Below are positions 16,842 through 41,937 of a stretch of DNA of 64,000 nucleotides, in pieces (the stretch's first letter is position 1; each line of letters starts with the position of its first letter). Made by a program: the position numbers and the translations under genes. The notes beneath the pieces were generated by a model that saw only the letters and a list, made by a program, of their open reading frames with translations, was not told where the DNA came from and ran no database searches. The stretch comes from Flavobacterium humidisoli (GTDB lineage: Bacteria > Bacteroidota > Bacteroidia > Flavobacteriales > Flavobacteriaceae): the NCBI RefSeq assembly GCF_023272795.1, contig NZ_CP096829.1, positions 1,674,001 to 1,738,000 on the forward strand, written 5' to 3'.

Positions 16842-16866
16842 GCTAAAGGAGAGTTCCTGCTTTAGC
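16842..16866 (-). terminator. Terminator-like hairpin in the metK leader, overlapping the uORF end
   Basis: On the metK strand GCTAAAG (plus 16860-16866) pairs with CTTTAGC (plus 16842-16848), and the hairpin is followed by CCTTTTT. The upstream arm can instead pair with the later segment TTTTTAGCA (plus 16831-16839). The two foldings are mutually exclusive, as in an attenuator or riboswitch expression platform. The 3' arm includes the stop codon of the uORF. Confidence 0.45.
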
Positions 16867-16902
16867 ATTTTTTACTACTGAAATGAATCTTTCAGCATTC
16901 AT
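16843..16902 (-). CDS. Candidate 19-codon upstream ORF in the metK leader
   Basis: ATG (plus 16902-16900) to TAG (plus 16845-16843), encoding a 19-residue peptide starting MNAERFISVV and ending AGTLL. It has no Met codon beyond the start and no Cys codon, unlike the other leader ORFs in the window. It lies inside the expected metK 5' untranslated region, and its last codons form part of a terminator-like hairpin, so translation would affect the RNA fold. Whether it is translated is unknown. Confidence 0.4.
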   Translation of the reverse strand: MNAERFISVVKNAKAGTLL

Positions 16903-16964
16903 AACGAAATCATTTCATTATGAAGAGGTTGCAATCAGTTCAAATTTTTCCTCTGTTTCGGGTG

Positions 16965-17138: not shown

Positions 17139-17207
17139 ATGAAATTTACAGTTTGCAATATGATGTCTTGTAAGATGCCGGAGTTATCCGCAGAGACGCT
17201 ATTGTAG
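17139..17207 (+). CDS. Leader peptide A, Met/Cys-rich, 22 codons
   Basis: A short ORF starting ATG-AAA and ending TAG, with Cys at codons 6 and 11 and Met at 8, 9 and 13. The core N-M-M-S-C-K-M is nearly the same as N-M-M-C-C-K-M in leader B at 20341. It lies just after a promoter and 26 bases before an intrinsic terminator. Codons 17-19 contain GCAGAG, which can pair with the terminator's 5' arm. This is the layout of ribosome-mediated attenuation: slow decoding of Met or Cys codons would favour the antiterminator. The controlled gene is the TonB-dependent receptor at 17329. The peptide itself need not have a function. Confidence 0.72.
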   Translation: MKFTVCNMMSCKMPELSAETLL

Positions 17208-17232: not shown

Positions 17233-17262
17233 AACCTCTGCTGAACCGCAGAGGTTTTTTTT
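17233..17262 (+). terminator. Attenuator terminator A with competing antiterminator
   Basis: AACCTCTGC (17233-17241) pairs with GCAGAGGTT (17248-17256), followed by T residues. The 5' arm bases CTCTGC (17236-17241) can instead pair with GCAGAG at 17190-17195 inside leader ORF A. A ribosome that reaches the leader stop would cover that segment and allow termination; one stalled at codons 6-11 would leave it free. Confidence 0.78.
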
Positions 17263-17328: not shown

Positions 17329-20175
17329 ATGAAGAAAAATGTACTAATCGTTTTAGGTCTTGTCACTTTTTCAGGACTTTATGCTCAGGACAATAAAAAA
17401 GAGCAGGATAGTTTAAAAAACAACGAACTGTCTGAAGTTACTATTATTGGATCAAGAAGTAAAAACAGAGTTAAAACAGATGTGCCAGTCCCAGTTGATG
17501 TTTTTAACGTATCAGAAATAACAAAAGGAGCACCGCAAACGAGCGTAACTCAAATTTTAAATTACGTTGCGCCGTCGTTTACGAGTAATCCAACATCTAC
17601 AGCAGATGCAACAGACCACGTTGATCCTGCGCAATTAAGAGGATTAGGACCAGATCAGGTTCTTATTTTAGTAAACGGAAAAAGAAGGCATACAAGTGCT
17701 TTAGTAAATATAAACGGATCGCCAGGAAGAGGGTCTGTAGGAACAGACTTAAATGCAATTCCGTCTTTTGCTATAGAAAGAATAGAAGTTTTAAGAGATG
17801 GCGCTGCCGCGCAATACGGTTCTGATGCGATTGCGGGAGTTATTAATATTGTTCTAAAGAAAAACGCTAATTATTTGACAGGAGGAATTCAGTATGGAGC
17901 CAATCTATCTTCGGGATCAAATAATTTTGAAGGAGGAGCAGACGGTCAAACTGCCCAAATCGATTTAAACTACGGAACTTCATTAGGCAAACCGGGAAGC
18001 TTCTTAAATGTTACAGGGACTGCGGTGACAAGACAAGCAACCAGTAGAGCAGGAATTAGAAACAATGCTATTTTTAATGCCTACAATGCGGTTGAAAATA
18101 GAGCGGCACAAGATGGGGTCGAAATCAACTCTTTGTTTAGCAATATTAATACGACTGGAAACTCGACTCAAATTTTGTCTTCTTTAAAACAATATGCACC
18201 GCAAGTAAGTTATTTTACAACAGCACAGCAAAATGCTATTGCATCGGCTTCAACAATTGCGCAAATGCAGACTGCTTTAAATTTTGACGTAACTAATAAC
18301 GAATTGGCTTACAGAGGTCAGCAGAGAAGTGATTATAATATGAGTGTTGGTCAATCAGAATTGGCTGCAGGACAATTGTATTTTAATGCTAAATATCCTT
18401 TGAGCGAAACCACTTCTTTATATTCCTTTGGAGGAGTTTCTTATAGAGGGGGTAAATCGTATGCGTTCAATAGATTGCCAAATGGTTCTGGTACTTTCAC
18501 GCAAATGTACCAAAACGGATTCCTGCCAGAAATTGAATCAAAGATTTTAGATGCTTCCGCAGCTGTTGGTGTAAATACACAATTATTTGGGTTTGATACC
18601 GATTTAAGTACCAATTTAGGAACAAACTCTTTTAATTATGATGTGAATAATTCCATCAATGCAACTTTAGGAACTAATTCTCCTTTTAGTTTTGATGCCG
18701 GAAAAATTTCGTTTTTACAAAGCACAACCAATTTGGACTTTAGTAAAAAACTGGATGTTCTTTCTGGGCTGAACGTTGCTTTTGGAGGTGAATTCAGATA
18801 TGAGAACTACCAAATTAAAGCAGGAGAAGAAGCTTCTTACGGATTGTATGATGTAAACGGAGATTTAGTATCAGGAATTTTACCTAGCAATTCACCATTG
18901 ATTGTAACTGATTTCTTTGGAAATAAACGTGGAGCAGGAGCGCAAGGATTTTCAGGATTTCAGCCTTCTGATGCTAAGGAAAAAGATAGAAAAAGTGGTG
19001 CCGCTTATGTTGATTTAGAATTGAATGCCACTGAAAAATGGCTTATAAATGGAGCAGCACGTTATGAAAATTATTCAGATTTTGGAAATACAGTTACTTT
19101 CAAACTGGCTTCTCTTTTAAAATTAAATGATAATATCAATTGGAGGATTTCTGGACAAACTGGCTTTAGAGCGCCTTCTTTACAGCAAAGATACTTTGAA
19201 TCAAGTTCTACTCAGTTTATTAACGGTTCTCCATATCAAGTGGGTTATTTTACAAACGATTCGCAAGCTGCAAAAAGTATTGGAATTGAAAGTTTAAGAC
19301 CAGAGAAATCAAAAAGCATCAGTACAGGATTTACATTCAAAATTCCTGAAGCTAACATAACCATTGCAACTGATGCTTATTTTACAAGAATCAATGATCG
19401 TATTGTTTTGTCTGGACAATATTCTAGACCAACAGACGCGCAAATCGGTGCTGCAACTTCGCCAGAGCAGGCAGAAGCACTGACTTTATTTCAACAGGCA
19501 TTTGATTTAAAAGGTGTAGAAAGAGCATCTTTCTGGACAAATGGAATTGATTCTGAAACAAAAGGAATTGATTTGGTGATTTCTCAAAAATATGATGTAA
19601 TTCAGGATTTTGTAATTAGAAATGATTTGGCTTTAAGTTTTAATGAAACCAAAAGAGTAGGCGATTTACATATCCCAAAATCAATAATTGATGCAGGAGG
19701 AGAACCATATATTTATTCTTTCTTCCCAGAATCAAGCCGAGTGTATTTAGAAGAAGCGATTCCGAAACTGAAAGCCAATTTGATGACTACTTTCAATATT
19801 AAAAAACTGGATATCTATTTAAGAAACAGCTATTTTGGAAAAGTTACAGATCCAGGAGCAACAGATGTTAATCTTGACGGATTTTCTTCTGTGTATGAAC
19901 ATCCAGAATATAGCGCAAAATTGGTTACCGATTTGTCTTTAGGATATCAGATCAACGAGCATTTGAGAGCTACAATTGGAGTTAATAATATAGGAGATGT
20001 ATATCCAGACAGAAATAATCCTGCAACTCCTGCATTTACAAACACAACTCCAACTTTGTCACCAGCGCCAAGTACAGATTTGACAAATGCGAATCAGTTT
20101 GCCTATTCAAGAGCAGTTTCTCAATTTGGATTAAATGGAAGATTTGGTTTTGCTCGTTTGAGCTTTAAATTTTAA
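17329..20175 (+). CDS. TonB-dependent outer membrane receptor under leader-peptide control
   Basis: Outer-membrane transporter of 948 residues. A signal peptide (1-19) is followed directly by a plug domain (about 45-185, with LRGLGPDQVLILVNGKRRH and GSDAIAGVINIVLKK) and a 22-strand-type barrel ending ARLSFKF. The CarboxypepD_reg-like domain is absent, so it is more like FecA/BtuB-type importers than SusC. Its transcript starts with the Met/Cys leader ORF A and attenuator, and it lies between metK and metY. From this I infer import of a methionine- or sulfur-containing compound; cobalamin for MetH is another possibility, though no cobalamin riboswitch is seen. A terminator at 20186-20226 ends the unit. 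Confidence 0.88.
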   Translation: MKKNVLIVLGLVTFSGLYAQDNKKEQDSLKNNELSEVTIIGSRSKNRVKTDVPVPVDVFNVSEITKGAPQTSVTQILNYVAPSFTSNPTSTADATDHVDPAQLRGLGPDQVLILVNGKRRHTSALVNINGSPGRGSVGTDLNAIPSFAIERIEVLRDGAAAQYGSDAIAGVINIVLKKNANYLTGGIQYGANLSSGSNNFEGGADGQTAQIDLNYGTSLGKPGSFLNVTGTAVTRQATSRAGIRNNAIFNAYNAVENRAAQDGVEINSLFSNINTTGNSTQILSSLKQYAPQVSYFTTAQQNAIASASTIAQMQTALNFDVTNNELAYRGQQRSDYNMSVGQSELAAGQLYFNAKYPLSETTSLYSFGGVSYRGGKSYAFNRLPNGSGTFTQMYQNGFLPEIESKILDASAAVGVNTQLFGFDTDLSTNLGTNSFNYDVNNSINATLGTNSPFSFDAGKISFLQSTTNLDFSKKLDVLSGLNVAFGGEFRYENYQIKAGEEASYGLYDVNGDLVSGILPSNSPLIVTDFFGNKRGAGAQGFSGFQPSDAKEKDRKSGAAYVDLELNATEKWLINGAARYENYSDFGNTVTFKLASLLKLNDNINWRISGQTGFRAPSLQQRYFESSSTQFINGSPYQVGYFTNDSQAAKSIGIESLRPEKSKSISTGFTFKIPEANITIATDAYFTRINDRIVLSGQYSRPTDAQIGAATSPEQAEALTLFQQAFDLKGVERASFWTNGIDSETKGIDLVISQKYDVIQDFVIRNDLALSFNETKRVGDLHIPKSIIDAGGEPYIYSFFPESSRVYLEEAIPKLKANLMTTFNIKKLDIYLRNSYFGKVTDPGATDVNLDGFSSVYEHPEYSAKLVTDLSLGYQINEHLRATIGVNNIGDVYPDRNNPATPAFTNTTPTLSPAPSTDLTNANQFAYSRAVSQFGLNGRFGFARLSFKF

Positions 20176-20254: not shown

Positions 20255-20286
20255 TTTGGTCGTTAAAAAAATACTTATTACATTTA
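20255..20286 (+). promoter_or_regulatory. Promoter of leader B / metY unit
   Basis: TTTG at 20255-20258, a 20-base spacer and TACATTTA at 20279-20286 (one mismatch to TAnnTTTG). TTTGGTCGTTAAAAAAATA from 20255 closely matches the promoter of leader A, with the same spacing. The start of transcription is expected near 20293. Confidence 0.62.
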
Positions 20287-20340: not shown

Positions 20341-20421
20341 ATGAAAACAATAGCAAAAAGAAATATGATGTGTTGTAAGATGATGCAAATGTGCATCCCA
20401 ATTTGCTGTTGCCAAAAGTGA
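20341..20421 (+). CDS. Leader peptide B, extremely Met/Cys-rich, 26 codons
   Basis: An ORF from ATG 20341 to TGA 20421. Of its 26 codons, Met occupies 1, 9, 10, 14, 15 and 17, and Cys occupies 11, 12, 18, 22, 23 and 24, so almost half code for the two sulfur amino acids. The core N-M-M-C-C-K-M-M is shared with leader A. It is followed by a terminator 31 bases downstream, and its last codons (GCCAAAAG, 20411-20418) can pair with that terminator's 5' arm. It lies ahead of a 58-residue protein and metY. The function is inferred to be a sensor of charged Met-tRNA and/or Cys-tRNA. Confidence 0.82.
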   Translation: MKTIAKRNMMCCKMMQMCIPICCCQK

Positions 20422-20451
20422 AAGAGACAATCTTTGTTATAGTTAAACTAT

Positions 20452-20488
20452 AAGCCCTTTTGGTCGCCATCCGAAAGGGCTTTTTTAT
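20452..20488 (+). terminator. Attenuator terminator B with competing antiterminator
   Basis: A 12-bp stem (20452-20463 with 20471-20482, one G-U pair) followed by T residues. CTTTTGGT at 20457-20464 in the 5' arm is complementary to GCCAAAAG at 20411-20418 in leader ORF B (8 pairs, one G-U). The two pairings exclude each other. Confidence 0.85.
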
Positions 20489-20512: not shown

Positions 20513-20689
20513 ATGAATACACTAGATATAAATACAATCGCATTTCAATACTTATTAAGAAATAATAATTCGGAAGAATCATCAACTGAAACTCCAAAAT
20601 ATGATCCTGCACAGCAGATAAAAACGCAGAAATCATTACTGTTTCATCTATATGATCTTGAAGAAGAAGCTGAAGATATTTTAGCTTAA
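20513..20689 (+). CDS. Small protein of 58 residues between attenuator B and metY
   Basis: ATG 20513 to TAA 20689. Soluble and acidic, starting MNTLDINTIAFQYLLR and ending EEEAEDILA. I do not recognise a family. It is the first gene after attenuator B and precedes metY by 87 bases, so it would be made under the same Met/Cys control. A motif SLLFHLY (41-47) followed by acidic residues is matched by SLLFLMY (51-57) in the 66-residue protein at 24058, which also follows Met/Cys leaders. A regulatory role in methionine synthesis is conceivable but unproven. Confidence 0.55.
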   Translation: MNTLDINTIAFQYLLRNNNSEESSTETPKYDPAQQIKTQKSLLFHLYDLEEEAEDILA

Positions 20690-20776: not shown

Positions 20777-22081
20777 ATGAGTACACAAAAATTTGCAACA
20801 AACGCATTACACGCAGGACACGATGTTACTAAAAACGGAAGCACAAGAGCGGTGCCAATTTACCAAACATCATCTTATGTATTTAACAATTCAGATCATG
20901 CAGCCAATTTATTTGGTCTTGCCGAAGCTGGATTTATTTATACAAGATTAAACAACCCGACAAACGACGTTTTAGAACAGCGTCTGGCAGCACTTGAAGG
21001 AGGAATCGGAGCTGTGGTAACCGCTTCTGGAGCATCTGCAATTTCTACTACATTATTGACTTTGCTAAAAGCGGGAGATCATATCGTAGCTTCAAATAGT
21101 TTATACGGCGGGACTTATAATCTGCTTAAAGTTACATTACCAAGATTAGGAATTACCACAACATTTGTAGATCCTTTAAAACCAGAAAACTTTACCAAAG
21201 CGGCAAAAGAAAATACAAGAGCTTTTTTTGTGGAATCTCTTGGTAATCCAAAATTAGATGTGCTAGACTTAAAAGCAATTTCGGCAGAAGCCAAAGCATT
21301 CAAAGTGCCATTTATAGTAGATAATACAGTTGCGACACCTTATTTGTTGAATCCAATTAAATATGGTGCCGATATTGTAATTCATTCCTTAACTAAATAT
21401 ATCGCAGGAAACGGAACTTCATTAGGAGGCGTTATCATTGATGCTGGAAACTTTGACTGGGCAAACGGAAAATTTCCTGAATTTACCGAGCCATCTGCAG
21501 GATACCACGGATTAGTATATCATGAAGCTTTAGGAAATGCAGCTTTTATAGCAAAAGCTCGAATTGAAGGTCTGCGTGATTTTGGTGCTGCTTTAAGTCC
21601 ATTTAATGCGTTTCAGATTATTCAGGGACTAGAAACACTTCCAATTCGAATTAAGAAACACAGTGAAAATGCTTTGGCTCTAGCCGAATGGTTAGAAAAA
21701 CAAGATGAGGTGGTTTGGGTAAATTATCCAGGATTAAAATCAAGTAAATATAATGCTTTAGCTAAAGAATATCTGCCAGAAGGACAAAGCGGTATTATCA
21801 CTTTCGGATTAAAAGGTGGTTTTGATGCCGCTAAAAAAGTAGTCGATGATACCAAATTATTCTCTCTGCTAGCCAATATTGGTGATACAAAATCGCTGAT
21901 TATTCACCCTGCAAGTACTACACACCAACAGTTAACAGATGAAGAACAAATAGAAACAGGAGTTTCTAAAGATTTAATTCGTCTGTCTGTAGGAATTGAA
22001 GATATTGAAGATTTAATTGCTGATTTGCAAACTGTTTTTGAGAGCGTTTATGTTTCTCAATTCAGCATCAATAAAAATTAG
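20777..22081 (+). CDS. metY: O-acetylhomoserine sulfhydrylase
   Basis: PLP enzyme of the Cys/Met metabolism family that makes homocysteine from O-acetylhomoserine and sulfide. The 434 residues are the length typical of MetY, longer than cystathionine synthases. The PLP lysine is K207 in HSLTKYIAGNG, and the aspartate of VDNTVATPYL binds the pyridine nitrogen. MetX, encoded at 24628, would supply the substrate, and the cys operon the sulfide. It lies 87 bases after the 58-residue gene in the unit controlled by attenuator B and is ended by the hairpin at 22105-22144. A second family member at 28657 may overlap in function. Confidence 0.9.
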   Translation: MSTQKFATNALHAGHDVTKNGSTRAVPIYQTSSYVFNNSDHAANLFGLAEAGFIYTRLNNPTNDVLEQRLAALEGGIGAVVTASGASAISTTLLTLLKAGDHIVASNSLYGGTYNLLKVTLPRLGITTTFVDPLKPENFTKAAKENTRAFFVESLGNPKLDVLDLKAISAEAKAFKVPFIVDNTVATPYLLNPIKYGADIVIHSLTKYIAGNGTSLGGVIIDAGNFDWANGKFPEFTEPSAGYHGLVYHEALGNAAFIAKARIEGLRDFGAALSPFNAFQIIQGLETLPIRIKKHSENALALAEWLEKQDEVVWVNYPGLKSSKYNALAKEYLPEGQSGIITFGLKGGFDAAKKVVDDTKLFSLLANIGDTKSLIIHPASTTHQQLTDEEQIETGVSKDLIRLSVGIEDIEDLIADLQTVFESVYVSQFSINKN

Positions 22082-23663: not shown

Positions 23664-23735
23664 ATGAACTTAAAAGTCAACAAAATGTTTTGTGCCATTT
23701 CGGTTAAGGCCGAGGCTGGGGTGTCTATTGCTTAA
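23664..23735 (+). CDS. Leader peptide C, 23 codons
   Basis: ATG 23664 to TAA 23735. It has the sequence N-K-M-F-C at codons 6-10, so one internal Met and one Cys codon. The reading frame is open upstream to 23550, but the ATG at 23664, after an A-rich stretch, fits the leader size. Codons 17-18 (GAGGCT, 23712-23717) are complementary to the 5' arm of the terminator 35 bases after the stop. Leader D downstream shares N-K-M-F. Confidence 0.6.
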   Translation: MNLKVNKMFCAISVKAEAGVSIA

Positions 23736-23769
23736 AAAAATTGTAAGAATACAATAAAAATATAGTAAG

Positions 23770-23801
23770 AGCCTCCGATAGAAATATTAGGAGGCTTTTT
23801 A
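23770..23801 (+). terminator. Attenuator terminator C with competing antiterminator
   Basis: AGCCTCC (23770-23776) pairs with GGAGGCT (23790-23796), followed by T residues. The 5' arm AGCCTC can pair instead with GAGGCT at 23712-23717 in leader ORF C. Confidence 0.75.
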
Positions 23802-23845: not shown

Positions 23846-23911
23846 ATGAATAAATCCTTACAGATGAACAAGATGTTTACTGTCGCGCTTATTTGCGCGT
23901 ACGTCTGTTGA
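23846..23911 (+). CDS. Leader peptide D, 21 codons, in series with leader C
   Basis: ATG 23846 to TGA 23911, with Met at codons 1, 7 and 10 and Cys at 17 and 21; M-N-K-M-F at 7-11 repeats the core of leader C. Codon 7 is an alternative start. I see no promoter between terminator C and this ORF, so it appears to lie on the same transcript. CGCGC and GCGCG at codons 13-18 can form a hairpin. The segment right after the stop (ACTAAAAG, 23913-23920) can pair with the 5' arm of terminator D. Confidence 0.6.
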   Translation: MNKSLQMNKMFTVALICAYVC

Positions 23912-23941
23912 TACTAAAAGTATATATGAGTGTAAAAACTT

Positions 23942-23980
23942 AAACCCTTTTGGTATCTAAAAATCCAAAAGGGTTTTTTT
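23942..23980 (+). terminator. Attenuator terminator D with competing antiterminator
   Basis: A perfect 12-bp stem AAACCCTTTTGG / CCAAAAGGGTTT followed by T residues. CTTTTGGT in the 5' arm pairs alternatively with ACTAAAAG at 23913-23920 (8 pairs, one G-U), a segment a terminating ribosome at 23911 would hide. Confidence 0.85.
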
Positions 23981-24057: not shown

Positions 24058-24258
24058 ATGAGCAAATTGAACTACTTCGCAGAAAAAATTTCTAAATTGA
24101 AAAATAGAAGAACAAAAAATAGTAATCCGCCGCCAACAAACGAATTGGCTCACCCTAGGTTCGGAATCACAGAGGAAGATAAAAGCGCTGAGAAAAAAGC
24201 ACCAAATTCTTTATTGTTTTTGATGTATTCAAAAGAAAATGAAACGCTTTTTATCTAA
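24058..24258 (+). CDS. Small protein of 66 residues after tandem attenuators C and D
   Basis: Basic N-terminal half (KISKLKNRRTKN at 10-21), a proline cluster and a hydrophobic C terminus. No family recognised. It is the only gene between terminator D and the metX riboswitch, so it is probably the first product of the C-D controlled transcript. SLLFLMYSKENE (51-62) resembles SLLFHLYDLEEE (41-52) in the 58-residue protein at 20513, in the same position relative to a Met/Cys leader. The resemblance is short and may be chance. Confidence 0.55.
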   Translation: MSKLNYFAEKISKLKNRRTKNSNPPPTNELAHPRFGITEEDKSAEKKAPNSLLFLMYSKENETLFI

Positions 24259-24447: not shown

Positions 24448-24557
24448 AATGTTATAAAGAAAGGACGAGGGATTAGACCCGATGAAGCCTTAGCAACCCT
24501 TCGGTAAAACGAAGAAGGTGCTACATTCTACCACGCCAAACGTGGAAAGATAACAAC
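24448..24557 (+). ncRNA. SAM-I (S-box) riboswitch upstream of metX
   Basis: Contains the conserved SAM-I core elements: GAGGGATTAGACCCGATGAAGCC, given here as GAGGGA (24468-24473) and GACCCGATGAAGCC (24476-24489), then TTAGCAACCC, GAAGGTGCTACATTCTACC and GAAAGATAACA. P1 forms between TGTTAT (24450-24455) and ATAACA (24550-24555). It binds S-adenosylmethionine and is expected to shut off metX and the fused aspartokinase gene when SAM is plentiful. No strong terminator follows, so control may be translational. Confidence 0.92.
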
Positions 24558-41570: not shown

Positions 41571-41687
41571 CAGTTATCACGAAAGGCGGAGGGATAGACC
41601 CGATGAAACCTTAGCAACCCTTTATCATAAAGAAGGTGCTAAATTCTACTTTATACGACATTTTCCAGTATTAAAGATAGATAACAC
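41571..41687 (+). ncRNA. SAM-I (S-box) riboswitch upstream of metH
   Basis: Carries GGAGGGATAGACCCGATGAA at 41588-41607, then ACCTTAGCAACCC, GAAGGTGCTAAATTCTAC and GATAGATAAC. P1 forms between GTTATC (41573-41578) and GATAAC (41680-41685). P3 is longer than in the metX copy. It is expected to turn down the split metH and metF cluster when SAM is high. About 340 bases, mostly repeat sequence, separate it from the metH start. Confidence 0.92.
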
Positions 41688-41779: not shown

Positions 41780-41862
41780 TTTGCAGTCAATAGTTCCCGC
41801 TTTTCGTTGCAATCTTTTGTTTTTTAAAGAAAAAACAAAAGGATTTCCACTTCAATCGGGGC
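41780..41862. repeat. Interspersed repeat with an A/T hairpin between the riboswitch and metH
   Basis: CTTTTGTTTTTT (41814-41825) and AAAAAACAAAAG (41830-41841) form a perfect 12-bp stem, flanked by CCCG (41797) and CGGG. The block looks like a repeat inserted in the metH leader. Whether it changes riboswitch output is unknown. Confidence 0.65.
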
Positions 41863-41937
41863 TAATGAGCCAGCAATAGTGCACTTTTGGAATTAATGTG
41901 AAAAAAATATCGAAGGTTAAACCAGACTGGTTTTCAA

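Follow-up and report, generated by a model that had tools for sequence, protein, structure and literature searches.

What does a short open reading frame (ORF) crowded with Met and Cys codons do ahead of metY in Flavobacterium humidisoli? The locus lies in a stretch of 64,000 nucleotides (contig NZ_CP096829.1, positions 1,674,001 to 1,738,000), here called the window, which was analysed at its full length. The original prediction took the ORF, leader B, for the leader peptide of a transcription attenuator. The leader peptide, the terminator and the competing antiterminator of that interpretation have held up, but the late Cys sensor which it placed at codons 22-24 has not. Leader B very likely attenuates the transcription of metY by way of the ribosome, with methionine and, in this clade, also cysteine as the signal. 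This reading is suggested by the conserved frame, the covarying alternative helices, codons that fit the ribosome footprint, the serial order of two leaders without an internal promoter motif, and the exclusion of SAM-I riboswitches. The features are collected in Table 1.

Table 1. Features of the metY region and related elements in the window (positions of the window).
Feature	Position	Strand	Basis or remark
SAM-II riboswitch before metK	16852-16959	-	
Leader A ORF, MKFTVCNMMSCKMPELSAETLL and stop	17139-17207	+	Most Flavobacterium genomes have a homologue ahead of metY
Leader A antiterminator strand GCAGAG, partner CTCTGC of terminator A	17190-17195	+	Covariation
Terminator A hairpin, then U-tract	17233-17256	+	-14.0 kcal/mol; covariation values in the text
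TonB-dependent receptor gene between leaders A and B	17329-20175	+	Pfam PF00593, PF07715
Promoter-like site of leader B, Bacteroidota type: TTTG (20255-20258), 20 nt, TACATTTA (20279-20286)	20255-20286	+	
Leader B ORF, MKTIAKRNMMCCKMMQMCIPICCCQK and stop	20341-20421	+	Sequence; conserved frame
Segment 1, CAATAGCAAA, codons 3-6, partner 20401-20410	20348-20357	+	Pairing
Segment 2', TTTGCTGTTG, codons 21-24, partner segment 1	20401-20410	+	Pairing
Segment 2, GCCAAAAG, antiterminator strand, codons 24-26	20411-20418	+	Pairing
Small hairpin AAAGA/TCTTT inside antiterminator	20421-20435	+	67% of cells paired, mainly close relatives
Small hairpin TATAGT/ACTATA inside antiterminator	20438-20452	+	67% of cells paired, compensatory changes
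Terminator B hairpin (20453-20481) and U-tract	20453-20487	+	Folding, covariation
Segment 3, CTTTTGGT, common to antiterminator and terminator	20457-20464	+	Pairing
58-aa ORF between leader B and metY	20513-20689	+	Matches no Pfam/NCBIfam family
metY, O-acetylhomoserine/O-acetylserine sulfhydrylase	20777-22081	+	NCBIfam TIGR01326, E 1.7e-194, above cut-off
Leader C: ORF 23664-23735, MNLKVNKMFCAISVKAEAGVSIA and stop; terminator 23770-23796	23664-23796	+	Model match, folding
Leader D: ORF 23846-23911, MNKSLQMNKMFTVALICAYVC and stop; terminator 23942-23976	23846-23976	+	Folding
SAM-I riboswitch	24449-24556	+	
SAM-I riboswitch	41571-41687	+	
Flavo-1 RNA (RF01705)	41789-41867	-	Adjoins SAM-I on the opposite strand

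The leader reading frame and its conservation

The count of twelve Met/Cys codons among 26 given in the original prediction is exact: Met stands at codons 1, 9, 10, 14, 15 and 17, and Cys at codons 11, 12, 18, 22, 23 and 24. It had also called this density far beyond chance. For 11 of the 25 non-start codons the binomial P is ~1e-8, calculated against a background of 5.2%, which is the mean Met/Cys fraction of the 386 small ATG ORFs of 15-60 aa in the window; leader B has the highest density of them all. Codons for the amino acids of the downstream pathway are thus enriched, and for Met this applies to all clades.

The original prediction had made its case depend on conservation of the reading frame in relatives, and the frame is conserved. 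The ORF is present at 30/30 of the closest metY loci, and of 80 named Flavobacterium records, 79 have leader B ahead of metY (nearly all of the named relatives that are closest by metY bear the label Flavobacterium). The exception is F. hercynium (L284), where the leader is slightly altered. At least one Met/Cys-rich ORF with a terminator occurs at 96 of 100 Flavobacterium metY upstream regions; the other four metY genes have no leader. The lengths of the ORF region are equal modulo 3 in 49 of 50 aligned leaders B, a preference that the spacer behind the ORF does not show. In frame, 31% of the leader codons specify Met or Cys, and 18.7% specify Met; out of frame, the combined share is about 10% in one frame and 3% in the other, and that of Met is below 1%. 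The frame-keeping indels and the in-frame excess of Met and Cys indicate that the leader ORF is probably read as protein.

A self-search gave no second copy of leader B. Its short weak matches (L002, L003) were not leader-like, and neither was a pattern match with one mismatch (L006).

Alternative helices and the position of the ribosome

The end of the ORF had been proposed to be complementary to the 5' arm of the terminator, and this pairing could be specified: segments 2 and 3 form a duplex of 8 bp in which the eighth pair is G-U. CTTTTGG of segment 3 lies within the 5' arm of the terminator, and the remaining T in the loop. The terminator hairpin itself, AGCCCTTTTGGTCGCCATCCGAAAGGGCT, precedes a T-run and has a folding energy of -17.1 kcal/mol. 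Antiterminator and terminator are mutually exclusive, and the 5' strand of the antiterminator would be covered by a ribosome at the stop codon.

Both structures recur in relatives. In 50 leaders B, pairing held in 99.3% of the cells of the intrinsic terminator before the structural gene, 8 of whose 11 pairs showed changes on both sides, and in 93.5% of those of the antiterminator helix; in 45 leaders A the values were 99.0% for the terminator and 90.5% for the antiterminator, and the covariation counts are inflated by the relatedness of the sequences. A further helix, between codons 3-6 and codons 21-24 of leader B, had 73.7% of cells paired vs at most 45% when slid. In the shuffle controls, neither the pairing percentage nor the covariation score ever came up to the observed value, and pairing was far lower in slid registers. 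Antiterminator strands have also changed together with their partners, to GCAGCG/CGCTGC at a metY locus from a different family of the order (L343) and to AAGAGGC/GCCTCTT before cysH-cysD-cysN (L336).

The duplex energies were less informative. When leader ends were shuffled, 95 of 154 leaders beat 95% of the shuffles. Leader-A ends combined with leader-B terminators reached a mean of -10.8 kcal/mol vs -13.5 kcal/mol for the own terminators. Duplex energy alone discriminates only weakly. Because this comparison is only partly discriminating, we relied on column covariation and geometry.

Toeprints place the leading edge of the ribosome ~12-13 nt beyond the first base of the codon in the A site. 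The original prediction had stated that stalling at codons 9-18 would leave segment 2 free and that stalling at codons 22-24 would cover it. Folding agrees with both statements: in the first case the full antiterminator of 8 bp folds before the 3' arm of the terminator exists, and in the second, as with a ribosome at the stop codon, 0 antiterminator pairs are left, all of this being calculated with equilibrium energies for a process that is co-transcriptional. At least some internal Met stall allows the antiterminator in 154/154 leaders, whereas a ribosome at the stop codon allows it in 15/154. Across 151 leaders, the Met codons occupy the region that lies 12-59 nt ahead of the antiterminator strand, and nearer to it they drop to 0-2%. 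Such a sharp Met cut-off at ~12 nt is what a stalling sensor requires and is otherwise hard to explain.

We therefore propose the following mode of action, in which translation, stalling, read-through of the terminator and the identity of the signal are what we infer. When charged Met-tRNA (or Cys-tRNA) is ample, the ribosome would reach the stop codon and cover GCCAAAAG; CTTTTGGT would then be free, the terminator would form, and transcription would end before metY. When Met or Cys is scarce, the ribosome would stall in codons 9-18, GCCAAAAG and CTTTTGGT would pair, and with the terminator blocked metY would be transcribed. The same would hold for leader A upstream. A single transcript would carry A and then B in most Flavobacterium species, so that RNA polymerase passes both; in the window genome the TonB-receptor gene stands between them, and B has a promoter-like site of its own.

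The folding also bears on what happens when no ribosome is present. By equilibrium folding, the ribosome-free RNA forms the antiterminator in the window, in 73 of 82 leaders B and in 43 of 72 leaders A. The helix between codons 3-6 and 21-24 of leader B abuts the antiterminator and does not compete with it. A trp-type protector hairpin, i. e. a segment 1 that blocks segment 2 in the untranslated RNA, was found neither in the window nor in 73/82 leaders B. An untranslated leader is thus predicted to give read-through by default.

Methionine, cysteine and the late codons

Which of the two amino acids is sensed can be approached through the conservation of single codons. Codons 12 and 18 are Cys in 72 of 73 leaders B, and in view of this conservation Cys very probably contributes to sensing in the main clade. 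These two codons, together with the annotation of the metY family also as cysteine synthase, could even suggest that Cys alone is sensed and that the Met codons are incidental. This is improbable, however. A deep clade (L135-L145) has Met-rich leaders with 0-2 Cys, e. g. MIFNTNTMMMAMMMMNMMMFTTPYCLKSTS; all 79 distinct leaders B contain at least three internal Met, while nine of them contain at most one Cys. In addition, the genome has cysE-like and cysteine synthase/CBS-like genes, so that the supply of Cys need not depend on metY, and MetY as the sole route to Cys, which was also considered, is not supported. Hence methionine would be the signal common to all clades.

Even less probable is the distinction between early and late stalls that the original prediction had suggested. 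In such a two-stage sensor, read-through would follow from early stalls at Met/Cys codons, and termination from late ones at Cys codons 22-24. The geometry would permit it, since a ribosome stalled at codons 22-24 would sit on the antiterminator strand, as described above. Yet codon 22 is Cys in only 59 and codon 23 in only 55 of 73 leaders, with Arg, Tyr, Ser or Pro instead in many species, and the output of a late stall would equal that of full translation. The nucleotides of codons 21-24 pair with codons 3-6 and begin the antiterminator strand, and those of codons 22-24 covary with codons 3-6 as RNA; RNA pairing accounts for these nucleotides, and the amino acids vary. The end of the ORF is conserved as RNA. 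In leader A, the conserved CCGCAGAG is translated in two different frames, giving S-A-E or P-Q-R depending on the species.

Finally, although Met/Cys-rich stretches are able to bind Cu(I), it is hardly credible that the peptide binds a metal such as copper and that the leader senses this metal and not amino acids: Cys is nearly absent in one clade, the Met/Cys spacing is variable, the downstream genes belong to methionine and sulfate assimilation, and the leaders exchange with SAM-I riboswitches at metY.

Serial leaders, SAM riboswitches and known attenuators

Leader B is not a lone element but a member of a serial pair with leader A, and on this point the earlier reading was incomplete. Leader A, with the terminator stem CCTCTGC/GCAGAGG, is the top genomic match of model R1 (E 2.6e-15). 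The string N-M-M-x-C-K-M, noted in the original prediction as common to both leaders, is indeed present in A and B of the window genome but is not a fixed motif, as other species have, e. g., NMCCMM or MMMAMMMM. It was also discarded as a conserved element: the exact DNA pattern occurs in only 3 of 299 family genomes, and the two occurrences outside the window genome are not leaders.

At 58 of 100 Flavobacterium metY upstream regions, A and B lie within 1.2 kb, with A directly first. An A-B distance similar to that of the window was found in 13 relatives, where leader A is 3.6-3.8 kb upstream of metY. The TonB-dependent receptor encoded between the leaders in the window may take up a nutrient related to sulfur or methionine. 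Upstream of 56 of 72 leaders A there is a promoter motif of the Bacteroidota type, as there is before 22 of 32 leaders B outside close tandem; of the leaders B in close tandem just 6 of 50 have one, which is the frequency expected from shuffled sequences (11%). The scarcity of promoter motifs between close leaders points to a common transcript; closely spaced A and B are thus probably transcribed together, and the polymerase must pass both.

Related leaders extend beyond metY. Leaders C and D of the window precede a 66-aa ORF, which is followed by a SAM-I riboswitch and metX. The antiterminator strand of leader D, TACTAAAAG, lies directly past the stop codon. Among 20 relatives, leader D, whose peptide ends in MNKMFTVALICAYVC, could be recognised in 19 and leader C in 8. 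The small ORFs behind leader B (20513-20689) and behind leader D (24058-24258) have a motif in common (SLLFHLYDLEEE and SLLFLMYSKENET, respectively), and possibly they represent a small-protein family under Met control. When 196 genomes of the order were searched with the covariance model of leader A, 25 gave matches; they come from five genera and include two other families, and some of the weak matches may be false. The genes that follow the leaders include metY-metX-homoserine dehydrogenase operons, metH and cysH-cysD-cysN, where metX and homoserine dehydrogenase were named by likeness to the proteins of the window. One record of the same genus without an orthologous metY (L336:68-265) carries a Met/Cys-rich leader with its own covarying terminator before cysH-cysD-cysN.

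Other Flavobacteriaceae genera show what stands at metY where the leaders do not. Among 60 metY loci from these genera, eight have Met leaders (several in tandem), none of them with SAM-I (0/8), whereas SAM-I lies directly upstream of metY at 49 of the 52 leaderless loci; at the remaining three, the stretch examined contains a SAM-II match instead. If placed at random, the chance that all eight leader loci fall among the 11 loci without SAM-I is calculated as ~6e-8. No SAM-I was found at 20 Flavobacterium metY regions, including four without leaders. This distribution suggests that the leaders replace SAM-I at metY and that the two are mutually exclusive there. The Rfam models for SAM-I and SAM-II gave no match at leaders A or B, the T-box model gave none in the window, and of the Rfam 15 families none exceeded its gathering score at the leaders, a relaxed threshold returning only chance sub-threshold matches. 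Elsewhere in the window, a SAM-II and two SAM-I riboswitches occur along with the Met leaders, so that a single gene cluster seems to combine the sensing of SAM with that of Met-tRNA.

Methionine is also the residue with which every protein begins. A sensor of Met that works through the ribosome faces an inherent difficulty: starvation impairs initiation on the leader itself as well, a problem to which a read-through default would be suited and which it appears to solve. As for the complete arrangement, i. e. a Met-sensing attenuator with two serial Met checkpoints, without a protector hairpin (failed initiation, which also depends on Met-tRNA, giving read-through) and swapped for SAM-I at the same gene, we see the chances for and against it as evenly balanced.

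Leader-peptide attenuation is textbook knowledge for Trp, His, Thr, Leu, Ile/Val and Phe. Attenuation by amino acids is thus already known; the Met-sensing version, for which the comparative evidence is good, appears new. The metY leaders resemble the trpL class of E. coli in having a leader ORF rich in the regulated amino acid, an intrinsic terminator and an antiterminator strand at the ORF end. As in the trpL class, the position of the ribosome would be the switch; in our E. coli trpL control a stall at Trp frees the antiterminator. They differ in the amino acid (Trp there, Met plus Cys here), in usually being two in series, and in the default, since in trpL the protector hairpin folds in the untranslated RNA whereas the metY leaders fold the antiterminator (73/82 B, 43/72 A). 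The trp leader control sequence was checked against 5,371 E. coli genomes, and the same computation returned the opposite default.

Two serial short ORFs that govern the transcription of an operon are also known from Salmonella mgtCBR, where mgtM and mgtP lie in one leader mRNA as tandem attenuators and respond to ATP and proline, mgtP being a sensor rich in codons for its amino acid (PMC3641672). There the two signals are distinct, whereas both metY leaders are of the Met/Cys type and each has its own terminator. Codons for sulfur amino acids ahead of sulfur genes occur in actinobacterial cys operons too (Canestrari et al. 2020, as cited in PMC13236596). Those leaders contain Cys runs without obvious terminators, and no RNA element was reported at the methionine operons (PMC1262725); the metY leaders, in contrast, are dominated by Met and have an intrinsic terminator. 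The transcriptome of F. psychrophilum gave strong clues to leader-peptide attenuation before amino-acid biosynthesis operons; Met does not appear in the main text, and the locus table may list the leader (PMC9723704). A published Met leader-peptide attenuator was not found in our search, which lay mostly outside subscription journals.

A functional counterpart is the SAM-I riboswitch (RF00162), which is found at the same gene, metY, in most other Flavobacteriaceae genera and has the same expected outcome. Its aptamer, however, binds SAM directly, and none of the loci scanned has both SAM-I and the leaders at one metY. With the same gene governed in related genera either through a SAM riboswitch or, as proposed here, through charged tRNA, metY would offer a natural comparison for why lineages swap their sensors.
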